From: Thauera aminoaromatica S2
Lineage (GTDB): Bacteria; Pseudomonadota; Gammaproteobacteria; Burkholderiales; Rhodocyclaceae
Assembly (NCBI RefSeq): GCF_000310185.1
Contig: NZ_AMXD01000004.1
Location: forward strand, 1-64,000
Reading direction: 5' to 3'
DNA length: 64,000 bases
Each line of letters opens with the position of its first letter. Position 1 is the stretch's first letter. The position numbers and the translations under genes are program-made. The notes under the pieces were generated by a model. That model was not told the origin of the DNA. It saw only the letters and a program-made list of their open reading frames with translations, and ran no database searches. Of this stretch, positions 1 to 9,167 are shown in pieces.

Positions 1-1017
1 CGCGCGCTGCCAGGCCTCGCGGGCCTCGGCCGGCGTGCGCGGCAGGTCGCGCAACGCGCGCTCGGTCAGTGCGATGTCGCGCGCCGGCGCGCTGTCCAGG
101 CGCATGCGGTTGAGCTCGTCGATCATGCGCCGGCGCTCGTCCTCGAGCGAGGCGGGCAGCGCGGCGATCTTGTCGGCGTAGTCGCGCGCGCGCGCGCTGT
201 AGAGATCGCGCACCGCGCGCTCGGTGGGAGCCTCGAGGAGCTCGTCCTCGCGCGCGCTGATCTGCTGCAGCACGGTGCCGTAAACCGCCTGCGGGATCGG
301 AATCCCGGTGAGCTTGTAGGACAGGATCACGACCGGAACGAGGTAGGCAATGATCAGGATCACGTACTGCGCCACCTGGGTCCAGGTCACGGCGCGCATG
401 CCGCCGAGGAAGGAGCACACCAGGATGCCGGCCAGGCCGATGAAGAGCCCGATCTCGAACTCGACGCTGACGAAGCGGCTGGTCACGAGACCCACGCCGT
501 AGATCTGCGCGACCAGATAGACGAAGCTCGCCAGCACCGCCGCCGCCAGTCCGACCAGGCGCGCGACGTTGCCCTGGTAGCGCGCGCCGAGGAAGTCGGG
601 GATGGTGTATTGGCCGAACTTGCGCAGGTAGGGCGCGAGCAGCAAGGCCACCAGCACGAAGCCGCCGGTCCATCCGGTCACGAAGGCCAGGCCCTCGAAG
701 CCGCTGAAGTACAAGGTACCGGCCAGACCGATGAAGGATGCGGCGCTCATCCAGTCGGCCGCGGTCGCCATGCCGTTGAACAGCGCCGGCACGCGGCGCC
801 CGGCGACGTAGTACTCGGTGACGTCGGAGGTGCGCGAGAGCACGCCGATGGTGGCGTAGATCGCGATCGTCACGAACAGGAAGACGTGGCCGATGAGCTG
901 CTGCGACAGGCCCAGGCTCTCGCCGATCGCGAGCAGCACGACGAAAAGCGCGAAGCCGAGGGTGTAGATGCCGTAGTAGCGGCGCAGCTGGCGCGCGAAG
1001 CCGGGGTTGCGCCTCAA
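1..1017 (-). CDS. Na+/solute symporter (SSS family, ActP/VC2705 type), 3' end outside window
   Basis: The 339 visible codons encode the N-terminal half of a sodium:solute symporter. Several hydrophobic segments are visible (for example YTLGFALFVVLLAIG and YVILIIAYLVPVVI), with the family-typical stretch SDVTEYYVAGRRVPALFNG near residue 65. After the YKLTGIPIPQ segment there is a long charged, alpha-helical insertion, as in the VC2705-like 'large' symporter branch rather than short ActP. No ATG lies in frame near the start; a TTG at 1017 is preceded by GGAGAG eight bases upstream, which decides the start. It begins 37 bp after the stop of the exonuclease/kinase fusion on the same strand, so it is probably the last gene of the acetate-linked cluster. 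Acetate or another short carboxylate is the likely substrate, inferred from the nearby acs. The C-terminal part lies beyond position 1. Confidence 0.85.
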   Translation of the reverse strand, partial: MRRNPGFARQLRRYYGIYTLGFALFVVLLAIGESLGLSQQLIGHVFLFVTIAIYATIGVLSRTSDVTEYYVAGRRVPALFNGMATAADWMSAASFIGLAGTLYFSGFEGLAFVTGWTGGFVLVALLLAPYLRKFGQYTIPDFLGARYQGNVARLVGLAAAVLASFVYLVAQIYGVGLVTSRFVSVEFEIGLFIGLAGILVCSFLGGMRAVTWTQVAQYVILIIAYLVPVVILSYKLTGIPIPQAVYGTVLQQISAREDELLEAPTERAVRDLYSARARDYADKIAALPASLEDERRRMIDELNRMRLDSAPARDIALTERALRDLPRTPAEAREAWQRA

Positions 1018-1054
1018 GGGGAATGCTCTCCGCGCGGCCTGCGGCAGCCGGTCA

Positions 1055-3364
1055 TCAGTACTTGACCCGCGCGTAGTAGGTCTTCTCGGCGGCCTCGCGC
1101 GCGTCGCGCAGGGTGCGGATGCCCTTCTCGGCGAGCAGCGGGATCAGCTTGAGAAAGACCTCGGCGGTCACGATCGCGTCGCCGAGCGCGGTGTGACGGC
1201 CGACGATGGTCAGGCCCAGGCGCTCGGCGATCGCCTCCAGGCGGTGCGACTCCTGGTTGGGATGCACCACTGCCGACAGCAGCAGGGTGTCGATCACCGG
1301 ATGGTCGAAGCGCAGGCCGGTCTGCTCTTCCTTGAGCTGCAGGAACCGCATGTCGAAGGCGGCGTTGTGCGCGATCAGCACGGTGTCGGCGGCGAAGGCG
1401 TGGAAGGCGGGCAGCACCTTGTCGATGGTGGGCTGGCCGCGCAGCATCTCCGAGGTGATGCCATGGATCTTGGCCGACTCGGGGGCGAGCGGACGCTCCG
1501 GGTCCACCAGCTGCTCGAAGGATTCCGCGCGCAGCAGCTTGCCGTTGAGGATGCGGGTGGCGCCGACCTGGATGATCTCGTCGCCCTGCGAGGGGTTGAG
1601 CCCGGTGGTCTCGGTGTCGAACACCGTGTAGCTGAGCTCGGAGAGCAGGCGGTCGTCGAGTTCGTGCGACTTCTCCGACCACGCGAAGAGATCGAAGTCG
1701 TAGTACTCGGGACGGCTCTCGCCGCGCAGGTAGGTCTCGGCCTCGGCCTGCTCCTGCGGCGTCGCCGCCGGCAGCAGGATGCGGAAGAAGGCACGGTGGC
1801 GCACCTTCTCGCGCTCGAGCCACATCTCGCCGTCGTGGCGGTCGACCACGTCGCGCACGGTGAGCGGGCTGCTCTCGTCCTCGATCTTCATCGGTTCGAG
1901 CTCCCAGCTCATCACCGTCTCGGTGCTCATCGCCTGCCCCGACCAGATCAGGTCGAGGTGCACGAGGCGCCCGGCCGCGCTCAGGCGGAAGCGCACCTCG
2001 CGCACCTCGAATTCGTCCGACAGCCGGCTGGCGAGGTAGGTGATGGCCTGGATCAGCGAGAAGCTGTCGACCTTCACCCACAGGGATTCATCGACCTCCT
2101 CGAGCTTGGTGGGCAGGCCGATGCGGGCCTCGATGCGGCGCTGCGCCGCGGCGATCAGGTCGGCGCCGAGCATCTCCTCGAGCGGCCAGCGCGCCTTCAG
2201 CGAGTCGGCGAACTCGTTCGCCGTGTGGTCGAGGCGCTGGCTCATGGCCTGCACCTCGTCGCGCACCACCTTGCGGAAACGCGTGCGCATCTCGTCGGTG
2301 AGGTCCTCGAACTCGAGCATGTCGGCCGCCGCGCGCACGTTGGCGAGCGAGGCGCGGTTGCCCTCGGTGAGGTTGTGCAGCATCTGGTCGCGGCGCGACT
2401 CGGTCTCGAAGTTCCGCGTGATGTTGTCGAGCATCAGGATGAAACCGGTGAGCGTGCGCTCGGACGTGACCGCTGCCGCGGCGACCTCGGGCGCTGCGGG
2501 GGACGCGCCGCCCCCTGCATTGCCAGCGCCGTCGCCCTCCGCTGCCGCATTCTGCTGCACACCGGTCACGCTCCCTGCGGCGACGGCTGTCGACTCCGCC
2601 GCCACAAGCGCCGGCGCGGCCAGCGACAGCACCGGCGCCATCTGCACGCGCAGCAGCTGGCCGGCACGCGTGGTGGTGACGAAGTTGGCCTGTGCCTGGG
2701 CGGCACCGCGACGCAGGCGCTGCTGGATGGTGTCGAGCGCGTGCGCGATCAGGTTGCGCTCGAAGACGCCATAGATGGAGCGCCCCAGCCCGATCAGCTC
2801 GCCGCCGCCGGCCACGCCGGGCGCGTCCGAGAGCGCGCGGAACTGGGCGCGCGCACGGTTGTTGTAGAGCAGCACGCGGCCGTCGAGGTTGCACACCACC
2901 ACGCTTTGGGTGAGCTCGGACATCAGCGCGGCGAGGCGGTCCTTCTCGAGCTCGACCGAAGCCTTGGCGCGCCCGATCTGCGCCTCCACGTCCTGCAGCA
3001 GCACGTCGCGCTGGCTCGCGAGCTCGTTGGTGGCGACCGCGAGCTGCTGCACCTCGGGCGGCCCCTCGGGGTGCACGCGGAAACCGCGGTTGGCCCCCAG
3101 CATCAGGCGCAGGTTCTCCGACATGCGCAGCAGGCCCTGGACGTACTGACGGAAGAGCACGCGCACCACGCCCACCCCGGCAGCGAAGCCCATCGCGGTG
3201 AGCAGGGTACCGAGCGTGAGGTGCGGCGACAGCACCTTCAGGAGCAGGTCGCGCGCCTCGCCCTCGGTCTCCACCCAGACGATCAGCGCCGTGAGCAGGA
3301 AGGGCCCGGTCATCAGCAGGAACAGCACGACGACCGCGAGCATGAATCGCGCACGTGCCTGCAT
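1055..3364 (-). CDS. Membrane PAS/degenerate histidine-kinase protein fused to a DnaQ-type 3'-5' exonuclease
   Basis: 769 residues. Two hydrophobic segments (about 8-30 and 50-70) are followed by a HAMP-like linker, a coiled coil, a PAS-like region (about 145-235) and a low-complexity Ala/Gly insert (about 255-300). A kinase-like helical and ATPase-like region follows, but the usual HELRTPL phospho-acceptor box is absent: the matching helix reads RRDQMLHNLTEGNRASL. Residues about 575-760 form a complete DEDDh exonuclease with FDTETTGL (Exo I), HNAAFDMRF (Exo II) and GRHTALGDA (Exo III, catalytic His and Asp). It is translated 3 bp after the receiver gene and sits between it and the symporter, so it is part of the same operon. 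Free-standing DnaQ-like genes are known near acetate symporter genes; fusion to a membrane sensor is the odd feature. The exonuclease substrate is unknown. Confidence 0.85.
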   Translation of the reverse strand: MQARARFMLAVVVLFLLMTGPFLLTALIVWVETEGEARDLLLKVLSPHLTLGTLLTAMGFAAGVGVVRVLFRQYVQGLLRMSENLRLMLGANRGFRVHPEGPPEVQQLAVATNELASQRDVLLQDVEAQIGRAKASVELEKDRLAALMSELTQSVVVCNLDGRVLLYNNRARAQFRALSDAPGVAGGGELIGLGRSIYGVFERNLIAHALDTIQQRLRRGAAQAQANFVTTTRAGQLLRVQMAPVLSLAAPALVAAESTAVAAGSVTGVQQNAAAEGDGAGNAGGGASPAAPEVAAAAVTSERTLTGFILMLDNITRNFETESRRDQMLHNLTEGNRASLANVRAAADMLEFEDLTDEMRTRFRKVVRDEVQAMSQRLDHTANEFADSLKARWPLEEMLGADLIAAAQRRIEARIGLPTKLEEVDESLWVKVDSFSLIQAITYLASRLSDEFEVREVRFRLSAAGRLVHLDLIWSGQAMSTETVMSWELEPMKIEDESSPLTVRDVVDRHDGEMWLEREKVRHRAFFRILLPAATPQEQAEAETYLRGESRPEYYDFDLFAWSEKSHELDDRLLSELSYTVFDTETTGLNPSQGDEIIQVGATRILNGKLLRAESFEQLVDPERPLAPESAKIHGITSEMLRGQPTIDKVLPAFHAFAADTVLIAHNAAFDMRFLQLKEEQTGLRFDHPVIDTLLLSAVVHPNQESHRLEAIAERLGLTIVGRHTALGDAIVTAEVFLKLIPLLAEKGIRTLRDAREAAEKTYYARVKY

Positions 3365-3367
3365 GAT

Positions 3368-3736
3368 TCAGTGCTCCAGAAGGCTGCGCACCTTGTCCAC
3401 CAGCTCGCGGGTGGAGAAGGGCTTGGTCATGTAGGCGTCGGCGCCGAGCGCGAGGCCCTTGGCGACCTCGGTGTCGCGGCCCTTGGCGGTCAGCATCAGG
3501 ATGCGGATTCCCGCCATCTCGGGGTCGGAACGGATCTCCTGGCAGACCTCGAAGCCGCTCTTCTTCGGCATCATCACGTCTAGCAGCACCAGGTCGGGTC
3601 GCGAGGCGCGGATCCTGCGCACCGCCTCCTCGCCGTCGTTGGCCACCTCGACCTGGTAGCCCTCGCGCTTCATGAGAAATTCCAGCGAAATGACGATGTT
3701 CTGTTCATCGTCGGCAATCAGTACTTTCTTGTCCAT
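3368..3736 (-). CDS. Single-domain response regulator (receiver only)
   Basis: 122 residues consisting only of a CheY-like receiver. The acidic pair D9/D10 (IADDE), phospho-acceptor D53 (LVLLDVMMP), T83 and K105 (MTKPF) are all present, so it should accept phosphate and bind Mg2+. There is no DNA-binding domain. It lies 30 bp downstream of the symporter-kinase gene and 3 bp upstream of the exonuclease fusion. The cognate kinase is therefore probably the CrbS-like protein. The known output partner of such kinases (CrbR/ErdR) carries a LuxR-type helix-turn-helix; here that domain is missing, so signalling must go through protein contact or another regulator elsewhere. Confidence 0.9.
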   Translation of the reverse strand: MDKKVLIADDEQNIVISLEFLMKREGYQVEVANDGEEAVRRIRASRPDLVLLDVMMPKKSGFEVCQEIRSDPEMAGIRILMLTAKGRDTEVAKGLALGADAYMTKPFSTRELVDKVRSLLEH

Positions 3737-3766
3737 CAGCGTCTCCTCCCCGCCCGATATTCTATG

Positions 3767-6508
3767 TCATCCCTCGCCCGCCGCCGACTTCAGCGGCAGC
3801 TCGAAGGAGAATGTCGCGCCCTCGCCCGGCACCGACTCCAGCCACAGCCGACCGCCGAAGTGCTCGACGATCTGGCGGCTGATCGGCAGCCCCAGGCCGG
3901 TACCCTGCGGTCGCGAGCGTTCGTCGCCGCCCTGGCGGAACTTCTCGAACACCACCGGCTGCTGCGCCGGCTCGATCCCCGGCCCGTTGTCCTTCACCGC
4001 GACGCGCAGGCGTTCGCCATCGCAGCTCAACGTCACATCCACGCGACCGCTGCCCGTGGGCACGAACTTCGCCGCGTTCGACAGCAGGTTCAGCATCACC
4101 TGCAGCAGTCGGTCGTGGTCGGCACGCAGGGTCGGCACCGACTCCGGCAGGTGCAGGTGCAGTTCGGCGCCGCGGTCGCGGAAGAGCTGCAGGGTGGCGT
4201 CGCCCGAGTGGCGCACCAGTTCGCACAGGTCGATGTCGGTGTTGTGCCACTCGGCATGGCCGGACTCGATCTTGGCCATGTCGAGCACCTGGTTCACCAG
4301 GCGCGACAGGCGCACCGCCTCGGACACGATGATGCCGAGGAAGCGCTGGCGGTCCTCGACGTCGATGTCGGGGTCGTCGAGCATCATCTCGGAGAGCGCT
4401 CGGATCGAGGTCAAGGGCGTGCGCAGCTCGTGCGTCACCGAGGACATGAAGTCGTCCTTGAGGCGGTCGAGCTCCTTCAAGCGCTCGTTGGCGGCGCGCA
4501 GCTCGGCGGTCGCGGCCTCGAGCGCACGCGACTTCTCCTCGAGCTTGTGCGAGTAGGCGCGCACCTGCGAGGCCTCGTCGAGGATGTCCATGACCTCGCC
4601 GAGCCCGAGCGGCTCCGCCTGCACCACGGTCGACACCATCACCCGCGCGGAGGCGCTGCCGATCGCGCCGGCGAGCAGGGTCTCGGCGAAGTGCACCAGC
4701 TCGGGATCGGCCTTGAGCTCGGAGACCTGCTGCAGGCCGTGCGAGCGCGCGTAGGCGCCGAAGGCCTCCTCGGTGCGGCGCTGCCCGAGGAAGCGCGCCA
4801 CCAGCGGCACCAGCTCGCCGGCCTCGGCGCCGGTGCGCCAGAAGCTCGCCGGCGCCGCCGCGCCGCTCCGGAACACGTCCACAAAGAGCGCGCCCTGGGT
4901 CGCCTCCGGCCCGGTCGGCACGCGCAGCATCGATACCGCGACGTAGCAGCCGATGTTGGCGAGCAGGCTCCAGAACAGCGCGTGGCTGATGTTGTCCAGG
5001 CCGGTGAGGCCGAAGAGCTGCTCGGGCTTGAGCCATTCCAGGCCGAGCACGCCGTGCTCGAGGAAGCCCGGATCGAGCCAGCCCGACTTGGCGAACGAGG
5101 GCAGCAGCAGCGTATAGACCCACACCGCGAAGCCGGCGAGCAGACCGGCGAGCGCGCCCTCGCGGGTGCCGCCGCGCCAGTACATGCCGCCGATCACCAC
5201 CGGGGCGAACTGCGCCACCGCGGCGAAGCTGATGAGGCCGATGCTGACCAGCGCGTAGGCCTCGCCGGCGAGGCGGAAGTAGAGGTAGCCGAGCAGCAGC
5301 AGCACCACGATCGCACCGCGGCGGATGCCCAGCAGCAGGCCGGTGAGGTCGCGCTCGCGCGCGAGGTCGAGCCGCCGGCTGCGCAGCAGCATCGGCATCA
5401 CCAGGTCGTTGCACACCATGGTGGAGAGCGCGATCGCCTCCACGATCACCATGCCGGTCGCCGCCGACAGGCCGCCGATGAAGACGAGCAGCGCGAGCGC
5501 GCTCTGCCCGTGCGCGAGCGGCAGGGTCAGCACGAAGGTGTCCGGATCCACGGTGCCGCGGCCGAAATGCAGCAGCCCGCCGATCGCGATCGGGATCACG
5601 AAGATGTTGATCGCCAGCAGGTAGGCGGGAAAGACCCAGGTCGCGCGGCGCAGGTGCTGCTCGTTGACGTTCTCGACCACCGCGATCTGGAACTGCCGCG
5701 GCAGGAAGATGATGGACAGCATGGCCAGCAGCACGTGAGCGAACCAGCCGCCGTAGCCGAGCCGGCCGGCACCGTCGAAGGCGAGCAGGCGGTGCAGCTC
5801 GGGCACGGCGGCGGCGCGCGCGTAGAGGTCGCCAAAGCCGTCGTAGAGCCAGTAGGTGACGTAGATGCCCACCGCCAGGAAGGCGAAAAGTTTGACCACC
5901 GACTCGAAGGCGATCGCCGCGACCATGCCCTCGTGGCGCTCGGTGGTGTCGAGGTGGCGGGTGCCGAACAGCACCGTGAAGGCGGCGAGCGCGAGCGCGA
6001 TGTAGAGCGTGCCGTCCTGCCACCAGCCCGCCTGGCTCTCGATGCGGAACAGCGGGTCGTGCTCGCCCACCAGCAGCGCGTAGCCGCTGGAGATCGCCTT
6101 CAGCTGCAACGCGATGTAGGGCACGATGCCGACCACCGCGATCAGCGTGACCAGCCCGCCGAGCAGGTGGCTCTTGCCGTAGCGCGAGGCGACGAAGTCG
6201 GCGATCGAGGTGACCCGGTAGCTGCGCGCGATGCGGATCATCTTGAGCACGACCAGCCAGGCCAGGGTCAGGCCCAGCGTCGGCCCGAGATAGGTGGGCA
6301 GGAACCACGGCCCGCCCGAGGCGGCGCGGCCGACGCTGCCGAAATAGGTCCACGCGGTGCAATACACCGCGAGCGAAAGACTGAAAACCCAGGGATTGTC
6401 GATGACCGAGCGCCCGGCATCCGCGCGCCGGTCGCCGAAGTAGGCCACCGCGAACAGCAGCAGCAGATAGGCGAACGAAGCGCCGACGATCAGCCAGCCC
6501 GGGAGCAT
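3767..6508 (-). CDS. SSS-family symporter/histidine kinase fusion, CrbS/MxtR-like
   Basis: 913 residues. The N-terminal roughly 490 residues are a sodium:solute symporter with about 13 membrane segments, starting GWLIVGASFAYLLLLFAVAY. A STAC-like linker follows (about 530-620, containing AETLLAGAIGSASARVM), then a coiled coil with no clear PAS domain. The DHp helix carries His693 in VTHELRTPL; N, G1 and G2 boxes are NLLSNAAKF, DNGPGI and GTGLGLPIS. CrbS and MxtR proteins of Vibrio and Pseudomonas have this architecture and control acetyl-CoA synthetase; here acs lies about 400 bp upstream on the same strand, which supports the same role. Whether the symporter half transports or only senses is not decided by sequence. 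A 65-residue membrane protein starts the cluster, like cbrX ahead of cbrA. Confidence 0.9.
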   Translation of the reverse strand: MLPGWLIVGASFAYLLLLFAVAYFGDRRADAGRSVIDNPWVFSLSLAVYCTAWTYFGSVGRAASGGPWFLPTYLGPTLGLTLAWLVVLKMIRIARSYRVTSIADFVASRYGKSHLLGGLVTLIAVVGIVPYIALQLKAISSGYALLVGEHDPLFRIESQAGWWQDGTLYIALALAAFTVLFGTRHLDTTERHEGMVAAIAFESVVKLFAFLAVGIYVTYWLYDGFGDLYARAAAVPELHRLLAFDGAGRLGYGGWFAHVLLAMLSIIFLPRQFQIAVVENVNEQHLRRATWVFPAYLLAINIFVIPIAIGGLLHFGRGTVDPDTFVLTLPLAHGQSALALLVFIGGLSAATGMVIVEAIALSTMVCNDLVMPMLLRSRRLDLARERDLTGLLLGIRRGAIVVLLLLGYLYFRLAGEAYALVSIGLISFAAVAQFAPVVIGGMYWRGGTREGALAGLLAGFAVWVYTLLLPSFAKSGWLDPGFLEHGVLGLEWLKPEQLFGLTGLDNISHALFWSLLANIGCYVAVSMLRVPTGPEATQGALFVDVFRSGAAAPASFWRTGAEAGELVPLVARFLGQRRTEEAFGAYARSHGLQQVSELKADPELVHFAETLLAGAIGSASARVMVSTVVQAEPLGLGEVMDILDEASQVRAYSHKLEEKSRALEAATAELRAANERLKELDRLKDDFMSSVTHELRTPLTSIRALSEMMLDDPDIDVEDRQRFLGIIVSEAVRLSRLVNQVLDMAKIESGHAEWHNTDIDLCELVRHSGDATLQLFRDRGAELHLHLPESVPTLRADHDRLLQVMLNLLSNAAKFVPTGSGRVDVTLSCDGERLRVAVKDNGPGIEPAQQPVVFEKFRQGGDERSRPQGTGLGLPISRQIVEHFGGRLWLESVPGEGATFSFELPLKSAAGEG

Positions 6509-6521
6509 GCCGACCTCCGCA

Positions 6522-6719
6522 TCAGCGCGCCCCGCGCTCGACGATCCACGCCACGACCAGGATCAGCGCGACCCACACCGAGAACAGATAGACGTGGAGC
6601 AGCGGCAACCCGAGAACGGTCTGCGGCCGGTCGAACAGGGACAGTATGGGATAGTTGAGCAACACCAGGCCGGCGATGAACACGGCCACCAGCCGCTGCC
6701 CGGCCAGACCCTTGCGCAT
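6522..6719 (-). CDS. Small two-helix membrane protein preceding the symporter-kinase
   Basis: 65 residues with two hydrophobic helices (RLVAVFIAGLVLLNYPILSL and VYLFSVWVALILVVAWI) and a basic first few residues. An upstream in-frame ATG at 6815 would add 32 polar residues, but the ATG at 6719 has a GGGAG ribosome site at good spacing, so the short form is chosen. The stop is 13 bp before the symporter-kinase start, implying translational linkage. Small membrane proteins are commonly encoded just before SSS-type kinases (cbrX before cbrA) and before SSS symporters. Role as an accessory subunit is inferred from position only. Confidence 0.75.
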   Translation of the reverse strand: MRKGLAGQRLVAVFIAGLVLLNYPILSLFDRPQTVLGLPLLHVYLFSVWVALILVVAWIVERGAR

Positions 6720-6914
6720 CCTGTCGCTCCCATGAAACGAGCCACGGCAAACGAAAAGGCGCAGCGCCGCCCTGCTCTTCGTGGCAGGGTCGGCGCGACG
6801 CACGATCAGGGGCACGCCTTGCGCGTACCCGGTCTCCCCCCGGCACCGGCTCGCTGGCCGGCTTCCTCCTGTCGTTCAGGAAGGCCGGACGCGGGGCGCC
6901 CGGCCGGCACTGCA

Positions 6915-8879
6915 TCAGCCCTTGAGCTGCTCGAGGATATGCGGGTTCTCGAGCGTCGAGGTGTCCTGGGTGACATCCTCGCCCTTGGCGAGCTGGCGCA
7001 GCAGGCGGCGCATGATCTTGCCGGAGCGGGTCTTGGGCAGGTTCTCGCCGAAACGGATGTCCTTCGGCTTGGCGATCGGCCCGATCTCGTGACCCACCCA
7101 GTTCTGCAGTTCCTTGATCATCTTCGCGGCATCCTCGCCGGTCGGACGCGCGCCCTTGAGCACCACGAAGGCCACGATCGCCTCGCCGGTCAGGTCGTCC
7201 GGACGACCGACCACGGCGGCCTCGGCCACCTTCTCGTGCGCGACCAGGGCCGACTCGATTTCCATCGTGCCCATGCGGTGGCCGGAGACGTTCAGCACGT
7301 CGTCGATACGACCGGTGATGGTGAAGTAACCGGTCTCGGCGTCACGGATGGCGCCGTCGCCCGCGAGGTAGAGCTTGCCCTTGAAGTCCTCGGGGTAGTA
7401 GGTCTTCTTGAAGCGGTCGGGATCGCCCCAGACGTTGCGGATCATCGACGGCCACGGCTTGGTGACGACGAGGATGCCACCCTGACCCCAGGGCACCTCG
7501 GTACCGGTCTCGTCCACCACCGCAGCCATGATGCCCGGGAAGGGCAGCGTGCACGAGCCCGGAACCATCGGCGTGGCGCCCGGCATCGGCGTGATCATGT
7601 GCGCACCGGTCTCGGTCTGCCAGAAGGTATCGACGATCGGGCAGCGGCCGCCGCCGACGTTCTCGTAGTACCACTCCCAGGCCGCCGGGTTGATCGGCTC
7701 GCCGACCGAACCCAGGATGCGCAGCGAGGACAGGTCGTACTGCTTCGGATGCACTGCCGGGTTGTTGTCGGCGGCCTTGATCAGCGAACGGATCGCGGTC
7801 GGCGCGGTATAGAAGATGCTGACCTTATGGTCCTGGATCATCTTCCAGAAGCGGCCGGCGTCCGGGTAGGTGGGCACGCCCTCGAACACGATCTCGGTCG
7901 CGCCGCAGGCGAGCGGGCCGTAGGTGATGTAGGTGTGACCCGTGACCCAACCGATGTCGGCGGTGCACCAATAGACGTCGTTCGGCTTGATGTCGAAGGT
8001 GTACTTCATCGACAGCACGGCCTGCAGCAGGTAGCCGCCCGAAGAGTGCTGCACGCCTTTCGGCTTGCCGGTGGAACCCGAGGTGTAGAGCACGAACAGC
8101 GGATGCTCGGCCTCGACCCACTCCGGCTCGCAGACCTCGGACTGGGTGGCCACCACGTCGTGGAACCAGCTGTCACGGCCGGCGACCATGGCGATGTCGG
8201 CACCGGTGCGCTTGACGACGATGACGTTCTTGACGGTATCGCAGCCGCCGAGCGACAGCGCCTCGTCGGCGATCGGCTTGAGCGGCAGCGCCTTGCCGCC
8301 GCGGAACTGGCCGTCGGAGGTGATCACGGCCACGGCAGCGGCGTCCTCGATGCGATCGCGCAGCGCCTGGGCGGAGAAGCCGCCGAACACGATCGAGTGG
8401 GTGGCGCCGATGCGGGCGCAGGCCTGCATCGCGACCACGCCTTCGATCGACATCGGCAGGTAGATGATGACGCGATCGCCCTTCTTGACGCCCATGCCGC
8501 GCAGGGCGTTGGCGAACTTGCTGACGCGGGAGAGCAGGTCCTTGTAGGTGATGCGGGTGACTTCGCCGCCGTCGGCTTCGAAGATCAGCGCGACCTTGTC
8601 GCCGAGGCCGTTGGCCACGTTGCGGTCGAGGCAGTTGTAGGAGACGTTGAGCTTGCCGTCTGCGAACCACTTGAAGAAGGGCGCATTCGACTGGTCGAGG
8701 ACCTGGGTGAAGGGCACTTTCCAGTCCAGCAGCTCCTTGGCGCGACGCCCCCAGTAACCCTCGTAGTCGTCCTCGGCTTCCTTGCACAGCGCGCGATAAC
8801 CGTCCATGCCGGACACCGCTGCGTTCTTGACCATCTCTTCCGAGGGATTGTAAATGCGGACTTGTTGCTCGTTGGACAT
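6915..8879 (-). CDS. acs: Acetyl-CoA synthetase (AMP-forming)
   Basis: 654 residues, the usual length. It activates acetate with ATP and CoA through acetyl-AMP. The P-loop-like motif [10 protein letters not shown], the acyl-adenylate motif DTFWQTETG, the hinge [13 protein letters not shown] and the C-terminal acetylatable lysine motif [11 protein letters not shown] are all intact, so post-translational control by lysine acetylation is possible. A GTG six bases upstream (8885) is also in frame, but the GGAGAG ribosome site abuts that GTG and is ideally spaced for the ATG at 8879, so ATG is preferred. It is divergent from fumarase and upstream of the CrbS-like cluster, which probably regulates it. 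Confidence 0.97.
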
Positions 8880-9167
8880 GCTCACCTCTCCTCAACTGTT
8901 CAAATGGTTGAAGCTACCCGTTGCGGGTGGGCTGGTTGAACCCAGCCTATGATCCGCCCGAACGCCGACGCCCCGTGAGGGCCCTCCCCGTCCGGACACT
9001 CGGATGCCGTTCGAAACGCCGGCATTAGAGAACAGCTATCTTACACAGGACTTACACCGCCCGGCCAGCGACGGCCGGCGGGGCCGGTGGTAGAATCCGG
9101 CGCCACTCCGGGCCTTCCGGTCCGGTCGCGTCATTCTGCCCCCATGTCATTCCGGAGACCAAGCGCC
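8880..9167. promoter_or_regulatory. Divergent acs/fumarase intergenic region
   Basis: 288 bp without a gene, serving both directions. Near acs there are two short dyads that would fold in the acs leader: ACCCG-TTG-CGGGT at 8916-8928 and GGCTGG-TTGAAC-CCAGCC at 8930-8947. On the plus strand a TAGAAT hexamer at 9091-9096 is a plausible -10 box for fumarase; no convincing -35 box is visible. No clear activator site was recognised. Confidence 0.45.

Follow-up and report, generated by a model that had tools for sequence, protein, structure and literature searches.

Two-component systems mostly control transcription, cyclic-di-GMP or motors. Two described systems stand closest to the locus reported here, a gene for a membrane-bound exonuclease with a kinase-like core, which lies in a 64,000-nucleotide stretch of Thauera aminoaromatica S2 (contig NZ_AMXD01000004.1, positions 1 to 64,000; the window below). 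DivL of Caulobacter is a pseudo-histidine-kinase that binds the phosphorylated single-domain receiver DivK, and its residue R553 is required for DivK~P binding; DivL retains the N, G1, F and G2 boxes, and its discoverers call the extent of such reversed signalling open (PMC4211667). In P. putida MxtR/ErdR controls the pp_0354/pp_0353 operon and ErdR binds the pp_0354 promoter; pp_0353, the next gene after pp_0354, encodes an RNase_T exonuclease needed for normal growth on pyruvate, and mRNA degradation by its product is the authors' speculation (PMC9927547).

The window protein has in common with the DivL-DivK pair PAS domains, a DHp-CA fold lacking the phospho-accepting histidine, a single-domain receiver as (here candidate) partner, and an arginine at position +3 of the docking face. 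It differs from DivL in having lost the N, G1 and G2 residues, and the DEDDh exonuclease that would be its output is part of the one chain. The likeness to CrbS/CrbR (MxtR/ErdR) consists in a symporter-type sensor kinase and in acs and actP as targets, and the regulon also holds an RNase_T exonuclease and a CBS-domain protein; unlike the system in the window, however, CrbR activates transcription and CrbS has a receiver domain of its own (PMC9927547, PMC5715377). The window receiver is unlike CrbR in that it has 122 amino acids and no DNA-binding output domain (the rest of the genome was not searched for a CrbR). PP_0353, compared by description, is reported with an RNase_T match only and with no membrane or kinase-like part. 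We regard P. putida pp_0353 as the nearest published analogue of the fusion system and at most as a possible ortholog. The fusion protein also shares all three motifs with the DnaQ/PolC DEDDh exonucleases, from which it differs in that its nuclease is joined to a membrane sensor and a pseudokinase. Each of the three elements (pseudokinase reader, symporter-type kinase, DnaQ-type exonuclease) is familiar from other systems; neither their union in one pathway nor a description of this fusion turned up among the papers listed in searches of the open-access literature, which does not include subscription papers.

An intact exonuclease joined to a degenerate histidine kinase

A first-pass annotation, made from the letters of the window alone, had proposed a DnaQ-type exonuclease with all three motifs intact, joined to a membrane-bound sensor with a degenerate kinase. 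Both halves of this description stood. The sole secure Pfam match of the protein was RNase_T (PF00929), covering residues 581-737 (E 7.9e-37, 127.8 bits against a curated cut-off of 24). Among near full-length homologues D583, E585 and D671 were present in 91/91 and H724 and D729 in 90/91, and all five catalytic residues were retained in 145 of 148 homologues. The three exceptions were one row cut by a contig end and two rows from one genus. The set was also intact in 16/16 further members, five of which were already among the 148. A general loss of catalytic residues, which the annotation had named as the outcome that would speak against it, could therefore be rejected, real loss being limited to the two rows of that one genus. 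The best PDB sequence match of the nuclease domain was 2p1j, a PolC exonuclease (E 1.3e-35), and its top relatives were PolC and DnaQ exonucleases. Since these act on DNA, the sequence gives RNA no preference as a substrate, and this affinity to DNA-type exonucleases stands beside the speculation about mRNA in the account of pp_0353.

Hydropathy showed two hydrophobic stretches at the N-terminus (residues ~1-33 and 49-71), and the full-length AlphaFold2 model placed helices at residues 3-32 and 36-90. A model of residues 131-548 gave a PAS fold, a two-helix hairpin and a CA domain with a mean predicted local distance difference test (pLDDT) of 85.1. For the full-length model the mean pLDDT was 84.8 and the predicted template modelling score 0.49, with the arrangement of the domains unsettled. 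PAS_4 reached 16.8 bits in the window protein, under the Pfam cut-off of 23.1, and was matched at E <= 0.01 in 10/20 family members. The linker that follows is a gap in most homologues. A search for other proteins with the same domain order, as the annotation had advised, returned more than 100 distinct sequences, so that chance is excluded as the origin of the architecture; a frame or annotation artefact was ruled out by the single reading frame found in 91 near full-length sequences.

At E <= 0.01, Pfam detected neither HisKA nor HATPase in the 20 family members scanned. Profile-profile comparison (hhalign) with the core of the adjacent kinase, that one pair, nevertheless gave a probability of 98.8 and an E value of 5.7e-17; six control profiles stayed between E 0.087 and 0.47. 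The PDB matches from Foldseek and VIA-align were histidine kinases, among them WalK, ThkA, HK853 and DivL (4q20), and the CA part aligned with 1ysr over 133 residues (Z 15.9, root mean square deviation 2.4). The missing phospho-acceptor box noted in the annotation was borne out, with E334 at the acceptor position, but it was not the sole loss, for the N, G1 and G2 residues were gone too. Across 149 aligned sequences the acceptor column held E in 103, D in 24, other residues in 17, a gap in 5 and H in none. Asn occurred in the N-box columns in at most 4/149; the G1 Asp was aligned to W474 and the second G1 Gly to A478; the first Gly of G1 was retained in 138/149, and the G2 glycines showed no conservation. 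With the kinase fold still detected by profile and by AlphaFold2 and PDB search despite the lost catalytic residues, this part of the fusion is, judged from its sequence, a pseudokinase. R337, at +3 of the acceptor position and matching DivL R553 by alignment, was Arg in 140/149.

A normal kinase with a shifted or hidden histidine, the other outcome that the annotation had set against itself, was considered and rejected, since the candidate residue lies outside the acceptor column and is not conserved: H330 is present in 77/149, and most of 14 other rows have a His six residues before the position of R337.

The neighbouring single-domain receiver

The annotation had also suggested that the receiver encoded next to the fusion gene (a domain assignment since borne out; Table 1) perhaps takes part in setting the nuclease. 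In the genomes the two are indeed linked. We assembled 149 members of the family, 141 of them with 700 or more bases of upstream sequence; L106, a second, truncated copy of the window protein (L numbers are our handles for loci, C numbers for contigs), is counted among the 149 and, having too little flank, not among the 141. A receiver gene lay directly upstream on the same strand in 120/141, with a coordinate difference between receiver and fusion gene of -20 to +19 nucleotides in 86 of them; in the window the receiver stop codon is 3 nucleotides from the start of the fusion gene, the receiver being 5'. D53 and K105 were conserved in all 123 receiver rows (the window's receiver counts twice), none of which had a C-terminal output domain, the tails being at most 10 residues. 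Gene order varied between kinase-receiver-fusion and receiver-fusion-small protein-kinase, with the receiver keeping its place beside the fusion gene.

The 21 members with no receiver upstream comprised seven from Accumulibacter, where kinase and receiver lie side by side elsewhere in 7/7 genomes; L140, L143-L145 and L184; L141, whose receiver is degenerate; L087, a miss due to an open reading frame start placed too far upstream, the receiver being visible on inspection; and L185-L187, L117, L134, L136 and L151. Rechecking L117, L136 and L151 with more flank (L284, L285 and L283) again revealed no adjacent receiver. Absence of the receiver went together with absence of the part on which it would dock. 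Eleven further members were added (four without the pseudokinase, two without the first DHp helix, five with DHp), and an adjacent receiver was found in 0/9 members lacking the pseudokinase (0/5 for L140, L143-L145 and L184; 0/4 for L271-L274). In L280 and L281 the first DHp helix alone is lost and the adjacent receiver is missing as well (0/2), while L193, of the same family, keeps both, the receiver sitting between the DUF294 and the fusion gene. The five added members with DHp had a receiver in three cases (L276, L277, L278) and none in L275 and L279. At L143 the exonuclease of the clade stands alone, and the response regulator of the locus is an NtrC-type transcription factor. The gene order of the two loci without the first helix (L280:6329-8236, L281:5297-7204) is symporter, DUF294, fusion gene, which apart from the missing receiver is the order seen in relatives that have one.

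When the pseudo-DHp profile was compared with 30 of the 43 kinase matches of the genome, the adjacent kinase scored 50.3 bits and the next best 23.1. In 4/4 genomes of one genus, moreover, the exonuclease residues have decayed and the receiver has lost its acidic pair (two receivers aligned, two read by eye). The joint loss of receiver and docking part, the retained D53 and K105, the likeness of the DHp part to the adjacent kinase, R337 and this joint decay make the receiver the likely partner of the fusion protein.

The defective receiver and fusion genes of that genus lie near translesion-synthesis genes (L141:4009-8746, L142/L203:144-6229, L201:5729-14335, L202:1-3646), L141 having ImuA and a gene resembling pol IV, L202 a fragment of such a gene, and L142/L203 and L201 each an error-prone DnaE2; the label ImuB used for these loci is presumptive. 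One copy carries an in-frame TAG.

A membrane nuclease as candidate output, and other explanations

Around the fusion gene lie, across the family, genes for acetyl-CoA synthetase, sodium:solute symporters and DUF294 proteins. Among 83 members with 4 kilobases on both sides we found the receiver in 69, the kinase in 67, the small protein that accompanies the kinase in 65, DUF294 in 57 and an ActP-type symporter in 54; 72/83 had DUF294, an ActP-type symporter or both. None of these neighbours was found in 7/83 (four Accumulibacter members, L141 and two DUF294 fusions).

We favour, with a confidence that falls somewhat short of even, a two-component pathway that runs from kinase to receiver to DivL-like pseudokinase and has a membrane nuclease as its output, an uncommon end point for signalling of this type. 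The symporter-type kinase would sense a small carboxylate, for example acetate or pyruvate, and would phosphorylate the stand-alone receiver on D53, a step suggested by standard two-component chemistry, for which the required residues are in place. Having no output domain, the receiver would bind to the fusion protein at the DHp hairpin, and the pseudokinase core would sense the receiver's state, a step for which the reading of DivK~P by DivL is the precedent (PMC4211667). The PAS domain could supply a second input. Docking may then alter the activity or the placement of the C-terminal exonuclease at the membrane, as the covalent fusion suggests, and the neighbouring genes, together with what is described for P. 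putida pp_0353, point to a role in which the exonuclease would tune carboxylate uptake and activation through nucleic acid degradation. DivL itself acts on the kinase CckA.

Other explanations deserve weight. The pseudokinase might bind the adjacent kinase or its receiver merely to tune the pathway, as a heterodimer or a sink, with the tethered exonuclease constitutively active near the symporters. The closeness of the DHp part to the adjacent kinase also fits a heterodimer, and DivL is a precedent for a pseudokinase that couples two-component pathways (PMC4211667); yet the exonuclease residues are kept in nearly all homologues, nuclease and pseudokinase share one chain, and in one genus those residues and the receiver acidic pair decayed together, so that we consider tuning alone unlikely. 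We are similarly doubtful of a sensor-controlled DNA exonuclease, serving repair or the clearance of single-stranded DNA, that shares its locus with acetate genes incidentally. It would suit the nearness of the nuclease domain to PolC and DnaQ and the location of the version with defective receiver and dead nuclease near translesion-synthesis genes, whereas the presence of DUF294 or an ActP-type symporter in 72/83 loci and of the symporter-type kinase in 67/83 speaks against an incidental association, and the exonuclease found in the translesion setting lacks its catalytic residues. That the exonuclease erases nucleotides which DUF294 nucleotidyltransferases write on a protein or an RNA end in carboxylate metabolism is quite improbable: although DUF294 is frequent at these loci, immediately precedes the fusion gene in additional loci outside the 83, is fused as CBS-DUF294 to two members of the same clade, and adjoins other exonucleases in 20/29 loci (~1.5 kilobases of flank), of which 18 make up a clade apart, the window's contig itself gave no DUF294 match, and of the two in the genome, on contigs C19 and C32, the one on C32 precedes an exonuclease-like protein in which two of the catalytic acids are changed to Asn.

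Very little credence can be given to a full circuit in which nucleic acids are edited at the end where transcription would usually be controlled: the symporter-type kinase would phosphorylate the bare receiver, and the membrane pseudokinase would read it and switch the exonuclease, which would trim DUF294 additions to RNA 3' ends or proteins. It would be just as long a shot that in such a circuit a DUF294 writer, often with CBS and cNMP domains, and an exonuclease eraser jointly set acetate and pyruvate use. This line of thought is drawn from adjacency and from the two genomes that join DUF294 and exonuclease in one chain, without the pseudokinase.

Several observations weigh against the pathway from kinase to nuclease that we favour. 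The members are related by descent, so that the neighbourhood counts are not statistical tests, and the degenerate genus is one lineage, in which the joint decay may be a single event. Nine members have the pseudokinase and no receiver found nearby (L185-L187, L117, L134, L136, L151, L275 and L279). Covariation between receiver and fusion protein, calculated from 97 pairs with an effective number of ~39, gave no clear signal and, in the top pairs, leaned against docking: of the best 100, 10 fell in the DHp part, to which 75 of 398 columns belong. Interface by DHp columns had the highest mean, yet a tiny one. The likeness of the DHp part to the adjacent kinase, in a comparison of 30/43 kinases, may reflect shared descent. 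The DUF294-adjacent exonucleases form a clade (99/99) separate from the fusion family, with the PP_0353 sequence itself outside the tree, and pp_0353 and pp_0354 are described as dispensable on acetate (PMC9927547).

If the favoured pathway is correct, DivL-type reversed signalling would be in use elsewhere and able to drive an enzyme directly, and the bare receivers beside symporter-type kinases would have a role. It would also offer a testable handle on how an exonuclease supports the growth of P. putida on pyruvate (PMC9927547).

Gene order, distribution and relatives of the exonuclease

On the minus strand of the window, positions 1-8885 carry, in the order of transcription, acs, the small protein, the histidine kinase, the receiver, the fusion gene and an SSF symporter (Table 1), which would form one operon. 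Pfam and NCBIfam scans of the small protein gave no matches. The N-terminal part of the kinase scored 17.9 bits against Pfam SSF, below the cut-off of 22.8, and in calling it symporter-type we partly assume a likeness to the CrbS/CbrA family. The symporter is presumably of the ActP type.

Table 1. Features of the fusion gene and its neighbours, with positions in the window
Feature	Position	Strand	Basis or remark
Sodium:solute symporter (SSF), interrupted by contig end	1..1017	-	Pfam
Membrane PAS/pseudo-histidine-kinase/DEDDh exonuclease fusion, 769 amino acids, ATG start	1055..3364	-	Open reading frame, Pfam, models
DEDDh 3'-5' exonuclease, residues 578-746 (D583, E585, D671, H724, D729)	1127..1633	-	Pfam, PDB match, alignments
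CA (ATPase-type) fold, residues 396-533	1766..2179	-	Without N-box Asn, G1 Asp and second Gly, G2 glycines
DHp-like two-helix hairpin without phospho-His, residues 316-390	2195..2419	-	Profile comparison, models, PDB search
Codon of E334, phospho-acceptor position	2363..2365	-	Alignment
Variable Ala/Gly-rich linker, residues 264-297	2474..2575	-	Alignment, pLDDT < 50
PAS fold, residues 150-252	2609..2917	-	AlphaFold2 models; PAS_4 matches in relatives
Two predicted transmembrane helices, residues 3-90, the second prolonged as a long helix	3095..3358	-	Hydropathy and model
Single-domain response regulator, receiver only, 122 amino acids, D53 and K105	3368..3736	-	PF00072, E 1.2e-29
Sensor histidine kinase, symporter-like N-terminal part	3767..6508	-	Intact HisKA and HATPase
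Small protein, 97 amino acids	6522..6815	-	Hydrophobic by eye; conserved beside kinase
acs, acetyl-CoA synthetase	6915..8885	-	AMP-binding and ACAS_N matches

With its own genome counted in each case, the window protein was matched at E <= 1e-30 in 56/101 genomes of relatives, and the family profile found matches in 17/274 genomes of the class at E <= 1e-40 and in 51/398 genomes of the phylum at E <= 1e-45, many of the latter outside the class. Some of these matches lack the pseudokinase (L125, L128-L130, L184, L271-L274). The best 80 matches kept included Thauera, Aromatoleum, Azonexus, Accumulibacter, Rhodoferax, Hydrogenophaga and Polaromonas.

An exonuclease tree was built from 62 domains, including four other RNase_T proteins of the genome and leaving out its DnaQ (L110). 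The fusion family, the stand-alone copy L128 and the DUF294 fusions L144 and L145 formed one clade (97/91), separate from those four proteins and from L105, the genome's own DUF294-adjacent exonuclease. Eighteen DUF294-adjacent exonucleases of other genomes formed the clade of their own mentioned above, and two more grouped with L105; the third catalytic Asp is changed to Glu in 18/20 DUF294-adjacent rows (from loci L204-L230), these 18 being the separate clade.

In the genome of the window itself, contig C32 (L114:2699-6894) encodes a cNMP-CBS-DUF294 protein and, after it, a DnaQ-like protein with the catalytic pattern N,E,N,H,D, which, with two catalytic acids changed to Asn, is probably a dead exonuclease. 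In two other genomes an exonuclease of the same clade as the fusion family is fused at its N-terminus to CBS and a DUF294 nucleotidyltransferase (L129/L144:6528-8690 and L130/L145:5415-7592), the domain make-up being taken from a Pfam scan of L145 only. Several relatives, for example L044:11165-14217, have two tandem DUF294 genes directly after the fusion gene.

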